32,352 nt of DNA from Pyrinomonadaceae bacterium (GTDB lineage Bacteria; Acidobacteriota; Blastocatellia; Pyrinomonadales; Pyrinomonadaceae). Positions within the stretch are counted from its first letter, which is position 1. Each line of letters opens with the position of its first letter. Location of the stretch: NCBI GenBank assembly GCA_013003295.1, contig JABDJV010000402.1, positions 1 through 32,352 on the forward strand, read 5' to 3'. Below the pieces are notes generated by a model. That model saw only the letters and a program-made list of their open reading frames with translations. It was not told the DNA's origin and did not search any database. The translations under genes were made by a program, and so were the position numbers. Below, piece by piece: positions 10,844-13,836 of the stretch.

Positions 10844-11068
10844 ACATTTTTCTCCCAATAAATATGCCGTCAGATTATCACAAGAGCCCCATATCTTTGT
10901 ATTCCGAAGTTCTTCCACCGCGTGCAGTTGATCAACCTTCTGAGTGTAGCGTGTTACCGTTCATAAAGATTCAAATCCGGCTCGTTCAAAGATTTGTGGA
11001 AAAACATTTTATATGGGTCTATTATTACATATATACTATCTGTCCAAACTAAAACGGCACGGTTCTTT

Positions 11069-11761
11069 ATGAACGGTTATTGGGTCCATATATTTATCGC
11101 CTTGGTGCTATTCTTTCCGAAGATTGAGCTTGCGAGAGATTTGCGACACAACCCTGTAACACCTTTCGCTGTAAACGAACCGGTCACCGAATTCGAAATG
11201 AAAGTTCTTGCTGAAATAAATTCGGCAAGAACAAATCCCGAATCTGTCATACCTCATCTTGAAAGGCAGGAGTCTCTCTTTCGCGGGCGGGTTTTATACA
11301 TTCCAAAACAAACTCCTTTTTTAACGGTTGAGGGTTTTCCTGCGGTCGATGAAGCAATCGGAGTTTTGCGGCAGGCTCCAAAGGCACAGTCATTGCGCAT
11401 CTCGGACGGCCTGGTAAAAGCAGCAAAAACGCAATTAGCCGACTTGCTTGAGAACCCGGAACTTGGCCACACAGGGAAAGACGGCAGCAATCTCAGCAGA
11501 CGTCTGGACCGGATCGGGATTTCCGGAAAGGCTGGTGAGAACATAACTTATACACCGCTGACGGCGCGACAAGTAGCGCTGAAAATGCTCGTAGATGATG
11601 GAGTGAAGAGCCGTCATCACCGGGAAAACTTATTAAATCCCATATTTCGGCTGGTTGGAATCGGTTGTGAACAATATAAGAACCGTAGATACATTTGTGT
11701 GATCGTCTTCGCCGACAAATTTGTCAAAAGCGACCCCGCAAAGCGCCTCAGGCAATATTGA
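11069..11761 (+). CDS. Secreted CAP-domain (SCP/PR1-like) protein
   Basis: A 230-residue exported protein with a CAP fold. The ATG at 11069 opens with a hydrophobic segment resembling a signal peptide (residues 5-17). An in-frame TTG at 10994 would add 25 residues and is less likely. The CAP domain spans about 42-218: FEMKVLAEINSARTNP (first helix), GHTGKDGSNLSRRL with H134, AGENITY with E157, and HHRENLLNPIFRLVGIG with H184 and E186, the residues that form the CAP cavity. Bacterial CAP proteins are secreted and of mostly unknown activity. Its last 14 bases overlap the 3' end of the convergent gene. Upstream, the 10844-11068 gap holds AT-rich sequence with possible -10 elements around 11027-11040. 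Confidence 0.85.
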   Translation: MNGYWVHIFIALVLFFPKIELARDLRHNPVTPFAVNEPVTEFEMKVLAEINSARTNPESVIPHLERQESLFRGRVLYIPKQTPFLTVEGFPAVDEAIGVLRQAPKAQSLRISDGLVKAAKTQLADLLENPELGHTGKDGSNLSRRLDRIGISGKAGENITYTPLTARQVALKMLVDDGVKSRHHRENLLNPIFRLVGIGCEQYKNRRYICVIVFADKFVKSDPAKRLRQY

Positions 11762-12590
11762 TATCATCTGATCTGTTGGGAGCCCAAAAAGAATCGGTTA
11801 ACTGAATAAGACAGGTCCGTGCTTCATTCGACGAAAAATCTTCAATCAAGTTTCTTTTTGCATCATCCGCGATGTTCTCAAGTGTGATCTGCGAAGCATC
11901 TTGCTCCTGTCCGCGGCTGTGCACATCACCCAGAAGTTCCGCAAACCGGGAAAGGTTCGCCAGCTCAATATAATCCGCTCCGGACAGGATCGCCCCTAAG
12001 CGCAGGGCAAGCCGCATCAATACAGATGTTTTTGGACTTCCGGAAGACTCAAACTCCTCGGCTCCCGAAGCTGCCTCGTCTGCTACTATTTCCTTGCCGA
12101 TCAAACCCGCCGAACCAATGCACTCGACGATTTCAGAATGGGCCTGTAACGCCCGTTCCGGCATTCCCCCGTGATTAACGAATACCAATGGATACGAAGC
12201 GTTCAGAAGTCCGATCCCGATCAATACGGCCAAATCCTCGCCAAATTCCTCATGAAGGCCCTTATATTCCTGGGCAGTTTTATCGTTTCCCATACATGGC
12301 AGCTCGCTGAAAATATGCGAGGCCTGAAAAATAAATTCAACCGCCGCTGCCGTCGGCAAAACATCGTCGGCTTTTCCGCCAACTAATTCCGCGCCAAGTA
12401 GAGTTAGCATTGGCGTGATTCTCAATTCTTCGGTTGAAAGTACATGATCAACCGCGCTATCAAACGCCGTATCGATACCCGAAGGAGCCTGGGGCCGATG
12501 ATCTTCCAATGCTTTTTCGATTTTCGATTGATAAGTTTCGACGTAATGCTGATATTCGTCTGAATTTTCGTTTATTATTTCCATTAACAT
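11748..12590 (-). CDS. Polyprenyl synthetase-fold protein lacking catalytic Asp motifs
   Basis: A 280-residue protein that aligns by eye with trans-isoprenyl diphosphate synthases but appears non-catalytic. Retained features: LRITPMLTLLGAELVGG where the family has GKRLRP, ELPCMGND (96-103) in the place of the family's DDLPCMDND, FGEDLAVLIGIGLLNAS (116-132), and PKTSVLMRLALRLGAILSGA (186-205). Lost features: all Asp residues of the first DDx(2-4)D motif (SELPCMG here), the second DDxxD motif (AELLG at 217-221) and the GKR lysine/arginine pair. It overlaps the upstream gene's stop by seven bases (ATG 12590; a second ATG at 12584), so it is translationally coupled. It could be a structural or regulatory partner of an active synthase encoded elsewhere, as in heterodimeric prenyl synthases. 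Fold assignment is fairly secure; function is not. Confidence 0.78.
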   Translation of the reverse strand: MLMEIINENSDEYQHYVETYQSKIEKALEDHRPQAPSGIDTAFDSAVDHVLSTEELRITPMLTLLGAELVGGKADDVLPTAAAVEFIFQASHIFSELPCMGNDKTAQEYKGLHEEFGEDLAVLIGIGLLNASYPLVFVNHGGMPERALQAHSEIVECIGSAGLIGKEIVADEAASGAEEFESSGSPKTSVLMRLALRLGAILSGADYIELANLSRFAELLGDVHSRGQEQDASQITLENIADDAKRNLIEDFSSNEARTCLIQLTDSFWAPNRSDDINIA

Positions 12591-13477
12591 CCTACGGTCC
12601 GCTTTCCGGCAACGTCCTTAACTAAATCGCCTTCTTCTGCGCTGGAGGATAGAAAAAGAATTCGCGCGGTCACATTATAATGATCACTCAAGTCAGCAAA
12701 AAAATCGAGTTTACCATCGTTATCCAAATCGCCGACCCAGTGCAATGTCCATGAATCTCCGAATCGGCCGCCTTCTTGCGGATGGACAACCTGTGCAATC
12801 CCGCCAGATTCGATTATCAATTTGGATCCTTCAGAAATAGATTTCTCTTTTGTTTTTTCATTAACGACTTTTAGCACAAACTTTGTTTCCCGAAGAATGA
12901 ATTCCGTCTCGAAGCCGTTATTCAAATTGGTTTTGCTATCCCATTCTTCATCCGGGATTTTTCGCGCATCAAAAAGCGTAATAACCTTTTCAGACCTCAA
13001 GCCATCTGCGTTTTTCAGTAAAAAAATTGGAGTCGTTTTTTGATTTACGGAAACCTTCTTGCCCGTCATTTGATCTGTATCGCTATCGGCAATTTCATCT
13101 TTTACCGCAGTCACTTGAAGAGTGGTCCAAGCGAGAAAGCTCTTGCCATCTTCATTAAACAGACCTAACCATTTCTCACCCGACTTCGCTTCAACTTCTT
13201 CGCCATGAAACTCGCCGACTTGAAGAAGATCTATCAAATATCCATCGAAATTCTCCCGGTTCCGCTCCTCTAGGTATTCCGCTTTCAGAGGCGATCTCTT
13301 CTCGATCTCCGCGGTTATCTCTTGACGTTTCAACTGGTTAGTAACTAAAACCTCAGCCCTTGACGCTTCGACATTCCCAAAACTCTTCGACGAAGCTGTT
13401 AGAAATGCTAAGACCGAAACACATCCAATCACGATAGTAATAAGAAGAACACCCGCACGGATTTCTGTTAGTTTCAT
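12584..13477 (-). CDS. Membrane-anchored hypothetical protein with FG-GAP/VCBS-like calcium loop
   Basis: A 297-residue protein of unknown function. Residues 8-28 form an N-terminal hydrophobic anchor or uncleaved signal, after which the chain is hydrophilic and predicted extracytoplasmic. Near the C-terminus GDLDNDGKLDFF (249-260) is a DxDxDGxxD loop of the kind found in FG-GAP/VCBS repeats and dockerin-type calcium sites; only one copy is present. The middle is rich in Lys and Glu with predicted strands. It begins five bases after the stop of the upstream gene, and its stop overlaps the start of the prenyl-synthase-like gene, so all three are one operon. Confidence 0.7.
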   Translation of the reverse strand: MKLTEIRAGVLLITIVIGCVSVLAFLTASSKSFGNVEASRAEVLVTNQLKRQEITAEIEKRSPLKAEYLEERNRENFDGYLIDLLQVGEFHGEEVEAKSGEKWLGLFNEDGKSFLAWTTLQVTAVKDEIADSDTDQMTGKKVSVNQKTTPIFLLKNADGLRSEKVITLFDARKIPDEEWDSKTNLNNGFETEFILRETKFVLKVVNEKTKEKSISEGSKLIIESGGIAQVVHPQEGGRFGDSWTLHWVGDLDNDGKLDFFADLSDHYNVTARILFLSSSAEEGDLVKDVAGKRTVGC

Positions 13478-13482
13478 ATGAA

Positions 13483-13836
13483 TTACCCTCGACTCTTTTC
13501 GGTTTCAAACACCTTGCTAGCATGGCCAGCAATTTCGGCACTAACGGTTATCCGAAACGGATGAGTCGCTACATAGCTGGGAATTTTTTTTACCGTAGCT
13601 CCTATGCCCTCAAGAATCCCGGCGATCTTCTCATCCGAAAACTCTTCCATTCCAAACGACTCGGTTCCACGCTTGAAGGCTCCCCGCAAGCGATCAAGAG
13701 GCAGTTCCCGGTCAATCAACTCAAACCCGCGAGATTGAAACTCTCCAAGTGCGAAAAGAATCACTTTTACGGATTCTTCATCCTTTTTTTCGGTCTCAAA
13801 AAGGGATGGCTGATCTACTTTGGCGGCGTCAATCAT
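13483..13836 (-). CDS. Hypothetical protein, first gene of a three-gene operon
   Basis: A 117-residue soluble protein with no motif I recognise. It starts MIDAAKVDQPSLFETEKKDE and is rich in charged residues, with a likely alpha/beta core around residues 22-95 (VKVILFALGEFQSRGFELI, EKIAGILEGIGATVKKIP). There is no signal peptide or membrane segment. It is the first of three tightly packed genes; the next begins five bases after its stop. An AGAAAGA tract precedes the ATG. The 13837-14017 gap to divergent coaBC presumably carries both promoters, but I see no strong consensus there. Confidence 0.6.
   Translation of the reverse strand: MIDAAKVDQPSLFETEKKDEESVKVILFALGEFQSRGFELIDRELPLDRLRGAFKRGTESFGMEEFSDEKIAGILEGIGATVKKIPSYVATHPFRITVSAEIAGHASKVFETEKSRG

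Follow-up and report, generated by a model that had tools for sequence, protein, structure and literature searches.

The 32,352-nucleotide stretch of DNA analysed here (the window) carries a crtE-derived open reading frame (ORF) whose product has lost the active site of a prenyl synthase. The host is a soil bacterium, and the gene is the CrtE orthologue of the native crtE-crtB carotenoid pair of Pyrinomonadaceae. Codon models and retained positions support that the remaining protein is under selection outside the active site. We consider the chances about even that this dead CrtE is kept for a non-catalytic role, probably as a dimer-forming protein.

Identity of the window gene

Genome G000, the source of the window, comprises 3.85 Mb in 501 contigs and is 85% complete. 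At E <= 1e-25, 32 of the 119 other family genomes searched have a match to the window gene, the best-scoring matches being at the same locus. The matching records that carry names come from MAGs of Pyrinomonadaceae and other Acidobacteria; one is labelled Aridibacter famidurans. The sequence-only reading had said that orthologues retaining the Asp motifs would speak against it, and such orthologues exist: 25 from Pyrinomonadaceae retain all motifs (DDLPCMD, SDDLIDL, and GKRLRP in most) and mostly adjoin crtB, the squalene/phytoene synthase gene that neighbours crtE in intact genomes. The usual gene order in relatives is coaBC - 117-aa gene - (FG-GAP gene) - crtE - crtB, and the nearest intact copies, 53-57% identical to the window protein, occupy this position too, flanked by the 117-aa gene and crtB. 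Five residues before the first motif the orthologues have Ser, which we take to be expected of a GGPP synthase, and IspA has Tyr. Since the intact orthologues keep the motifs, adjoin crtB, and carry the GGPP synthase-type Ser, the window gene is CrtE by descent, and we infer that GGPP is the product of the native CrtE. Genome G003 was uninformative, as its contig stops just short of the crtE locus.

The ORF encodes 280 aa and is free of stops and frameshifts (Table 1). The second ATG, at 12584, is the likely start of crtE and overlaps the stop codon of the upstream gene in the sequence TAATG; this overlap is also present in G001 and G004. The upstream FG-GAP-like gene has two homologues in tandem in G001 and is absent from many relatives. 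In nearly all relatives, even those without crtE, the 117-aa gene adjoins coaBC and precedes crtE or crtB. On the other side, a CAP-domain gene (window 10994-11761) converges on the 3' end of crtE with a 14-base overlap. Homologues of it adjoin crtE in G004 and G019, both of which have no crtB at this site, and one is near crtE in G001, which still has crtB there.

Table 1. Features of the crtE locus in the window
Feature	Position	Strand	Basis or remark
crtE-derived pseudoenzyme ORF	11748..12590	(-)	PF00348 match; orthologues at the same locus
C-terminal helices I/J, residues 244-269, retained part	11784..11861	(-)	Retention across degenerate copies
Second Asp-rich motif site, residues 222-233, lost and partly deleted	11892..11927	(-)	Orthologue alignment
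Helices G/H, residues 193-221, retained part	11928..12014	(-)	Retention across degenerate copies
Residues 118-160 (helices E and F), retained part	12111..12239	(-)	N130, Y133, A150, H151, E153, and C157 kept in all five degenerate lineages
First Asp-rich motif site, residues 95-103	12282..12308	(-)	SELPCMGND for DDLPCMDNA; orthologue alignment
GGKR(L)RP diphosphate-binding motif site, now TEELRITP (residues 53-60)	12411..12434	(-)	Orthologue alignment
FG-GAP-like gene	12584..13477	(-)	Directly upstream; stop codon overlaps crtE start
117-aa conserved gene, no Pfam match	13483..13836	(-)	Upstream of crtE in nearly all relatives

Fold and active site

The prenyl-synthase fold proposed from the sequence is borne out by both profile match and structure prediction. 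Pfam PF00348 covers residues 43-221 with 32.1 bits, above the cut-off of 27, and the AlphaFold2 model, built with 30 orthologues, has a pLDDT of 87.6. The best PDB matches of the model are cyanobacterial CrtE structures (7my0 at TM 0.82). There were 189 PDB matches at E<=0.001, and the 50 listed are all prenyl synthases or their subunits, including subunits of the heteromeric enzymes of mint, rice, and snapdragon. The degenerate copy in G068 likewise models as a prenyl-synthase fold. By sequence, the closest solved proteins are plant and bacterial GGPP synthases. The best NCBIfam models are CrtE and FPP synthase, both far under their cut-offs. On NF045685 (CrtE) the window protein scores 91.3 bits against an equivalog cut-off of 460; since the intact G011 orthologue also scores just 187 bits, this cut-off fails to separate intact from dead copies. 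The Pfam match alone would label the window gene a GGPP synthase, which is a warning for annotation.

Aligned with the 25 intact orthologues, the window protein reads EELRITP at residues 54-60 in place of GGKRLRP, and the first Asp-rich motif is substituted as given in Table 1. The sequence-only reading had thus been right that GKR is gone and that ELPCMGND replaces the first motif. It had placed the DDxxD site at AELLG, and there it erred: intact orthologues have AELLG (217-221) too, as a normal conserved segment of helix H. The second motif follows just after it, as GDAYQLSDDLIDLEED in the orthologues and as GDVHSRGQEQDASQ, with a deletion, in the window protein. The RR pair at residues 106-107 is replaced by AQ, and H88, Q167/D170, and Q225 are also lost. 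Still present are R57 and K187-T188, and PKT (186-188), GAILSGA, and FGEDLAVL can all be seen in the ORF, as had been described. All metal-binding Asp residues are therefore lost in an intact frame, in agreement with the same reading. Its suggestion of a prenyl-diphosphate-binding role is unlikely, because most diphosphate-binding residues are lost. We infer from the alignment that the protein would no longer be able to bind Mg-diphosphates or to condense isoprenyl units. An enzyme that is still active, other residues having taken over as metal and diphosphate ligands, would be consistent with the retained K187-T188 and fold, but GKR, both Asp motifs, RR, H88, Q167/D170, and Q225 are gone and the window protein has no compensating Asp-rich stretch; we regard it as highly improbable.

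Lineages that lost the active site

The active site has been lost in five lineages, completely in four (G000, G004, G019, and G068) and partially in G001, where GK of GKR and most of the first motif are lost and the first two Asp residues of the second motif are kept. Because most orthologues keep the motifs, the loss is lineage-specific. All five degenerate ORFs are open, with internal deletions in the G004 and G019 copies. In all four full degenerates crtB is no longer adjacent to crtE; it is still adjacent in G001.

In a species tree of up to 12 neighbouring genes, G000 groups with G001 (80/64), G004 groups with the intact G002, G005, and G006 (94/99), G019 is placed among other species, and G068 is deeper, so that the degenerate lineages occupy about four places. 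The CrtE gene tree instead unites G000, G001, G004, and G019 (94/95). A single origin of the degenerate copies is disfavoured and parallel loss of the active site is favoured, though not as the only reading, since the species tree separates these lineages, the members of the gene-tree group are all long branches, and the CrtE data do not reject a tree in which G004 joins its intact sister species (p-AU 0.26).

In other relatives the gene is missing altogether. At the locus in G026 and G032, crtE is absent and the flanking genes are directly adjacent, and most of genus g9 is without crtE. Therefore, any helper role of CrtE is dispensable.

Selection on the degenerate copies

Degenerate CrtE branches are about 2.3 to 7.6 times their species-tree lengths, indicating that constraint on these copies is relaxed; intact copies of the same genus are at about 1. 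This acceleration bears on the main rival to a maintained dead CrtE, namely slow decay, in which CrtE became useless after the loss of crtB and drifts to loss, the frame being open since little time has passed per lineage. The two- to eight-fold faster evolution of the degenerate copies fits such decay, as do the deletion of crtE in relatives, the internal deletions in G004 and G019, and the lack of an adjacent crtB in all four full degenerates.

Codon models, run on a reduced taxon set, argue in part the other way. On the degenerate branches omega=1 was jointly rejected (lnL -6881.5 vs -7012.9, 131 units), and singly it costs 10-14 lnL units for G001, G004, G019, and G068. The terminal branch of G000 alone has an omega of 0.20, yet omega=1 is just 1.5 lnL units worse, and omega values are rough because synonymous sites are saturated. 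Neutral evolution of G000's own terminal branch alone is thus not rejected, which again is compatible with decay. Divergence by codon position in the degenerate copies decreases from third to first to second position.

The open frame also speaks against decay. Neutral simulations from an intact orthologue to 55% identity, the divergence of the window copy, gave about 7 stops, and none of 1500 runs was stop-free; the open frame of the window ORF is therefore beyond chance. G000 keeps 3 of 19 catalytic invariants vs 50 of 70 other invariants (P 1.6e-5). The five lineages, all open, keep the same non-catalytic positions: 43 sites are kept in all of them vs about 5 expected if the lineages were independent (shared ancestry and site rates uncorrected). 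In the four full degenerates, helices E, F, G, H1, and J are kept at 0.55-0.67 and both Asp-motif regions at about 0.2. In solved trans-prenyl synthases, the dimer interface is made up of helices E and F. Taken with this evidence, slow decay is a real possibility, though not a probable one, and the window protein is probably a non-catalytic helper and not plain junk.

Carotenoid genes and other prenyl synthases

G000, G004, and G019 have a different carotenoid cluster elsewhere in the genome. Its genes are for a phytoene synthase of a second type, a desaturase (CrtI/CrtD), a prenyltransferase (UbiA), and a CruF-like hydratase-IPP isomerase fusion, a gene set resembling that of the C50 bacterioruberin pathway. 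In G000 the fusion gene is on contig C235 (L067, 4012-5316), where a CruF-like bisanhydrobacterioruberin hydratase has an IPP isomerase fused at its C-terminus; the gene lies within a phytoene synthase - desaturase - UbiA cluster, and many members of the family have the same fusion. Genomes with the native crtE-crtB pair yielded no full C50-type cluster. The cluster occurs across much of genus g9, and in G076 it adjoins an intact crtE. G068 instead keeps a type-1 crtB elsewhere in its genome.

G000 encodes two other prenyl synthases, a long-chain type (contig C459) and an IspA type (contig C1), both motif-bearing. The first motif of IspA is intact in all genomes compared. We considered whether the degenerate CrtE is needed together with IspA for GGPP supply. 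This is weakened by nearly complete g9 genomes that have the C50 cluster and no CrtE, their only synthases being of the IspA and long-chain types. The sequence-only reading had suggested a regulatory subunit of a heterodimeric synthase; crtE has been deleted in relatives in which IspA and carotenoid genes persist, which shows that such a subunit is not generally needed.

Residue 124 in helix E of IspA (G000 contig C1, L084) is Thr or Ser in 19 of the 21 genomes counted as CrtE-intact, and mostly Ala, Val, or Asn (15 of 18) where CrtE is lost or dead. It is the most CrtE-associated of 288 columns (p 3.5e-6, kinship uncorrected), and it stays a lead because there are only three phylogenetically independent pairs. 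The substitution is possibly a compensating chain-length change in IspA. It is also seen where crtE is absent, which would be in line with a takeover of GGPP supply by IspA alone.

Comparison with known non-catalytic subunits

Non-catalytic prenyl-synthase subunits are established in plants, where they set product length, and in bacteria as HexA/HepS (PMC7839719). The window protein shares with bacterial CrtE/GGPP synthases (7my0, 6sxl; NF045685) the fold, the best structural match (TM 0.82), and, in intact orthologues, the phytoene synthase neighbourhood, but it is without catalytic motifs and scores 91 bits vs the cut-off of 460. Like the small subunits of plant GPPS/GGPPS (mint 3kra_B, snapdragon 3qkc, and rice OsGRP 5xn6), which it matches in sequence and fold, it has a prenyl-synthase fold without DDxxD. 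The mint small subunit regulates an active partner and is itself non-catalytic (PMC7839719). Unlike the plant small subunits, the window protein has no CxxxC (its cysteines are only at 99, 157, and 259), and its gene is separate in origin, having arisen from bacterial CrtE at the native locus. The idea of a bacterial non-catalytic subunit is known from HexA/HexB of Micrococcus luteus and HepS/HepT of Bacillus, where it sets chain length (PMC7839719). However, the window gene is orthologous to a motif-bearing enzyme and does not belong to a separate small-subunit family; no small-subunit model was among the NCBIfam matches listed for the window protein. In the open-access literature searched, which misses most subscription papers, we found neither a bacterial CrtE turned pseudoenzyme nor a bacterial non-catalytic subunit that arose in place from a motif-bearing CrtE.

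Possible role of the dead CrtE

The sequence-only reading of a maintained non-catalytic protein is favoured, with the amendment that orthologues keep the motifs and that the loss, with crtB gone from the locus, is confined to certain lineages. In the explanation that we prefer, CrtE, the GGPP synthase of the native crtE-crtB pair, would have lost catalysis in G000, where the locus has no crtB any more and carotenoid synthesis would be encoded by the separate C50-type cluster, which is present as gene content. The remaining protein, predicted to keep the prenyl-synthase fold and apparently selected outside the active site, would then most likely act as a non-catalytic partner through helices E and F, either with itself or with the active IspA-type synthase, and might tune or stabilise IspA.

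Alternatively, the pseudoenzyme might moonlight with no prenyl synthase as its partner; it could be a homodimeric scaffold, for instance, or a regulator, tied to its 117-aa or FG-GAP-like neighbours. The order 117-aa gene - (FG-GAP gene) - crtE is conserved, with ends often overlapping, for intact and degenerate copies, and the clade-wide H151 and C157 on helix F are kept in all degenerate copies. However, G026 and G032 keep these neighbours in the absence of crtE, and we consider this role quite improbable.

Returning to the non-catalytic partner, a broader version is that CrtE became a non-catalytic subunit in situ on several occasions, in parallel lineages of the family, mostly where crtB left the locus, with a second, dimer-based function predating the catalytic loss. 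We put this forward tentatively, as rather unlikely. The intact, half-lost, fully lost, and deleted CrtE of related species form a natural series from enzyme to pseudoenzyme, and this series could be used to test whether the CrtE protein has a hidden second role.
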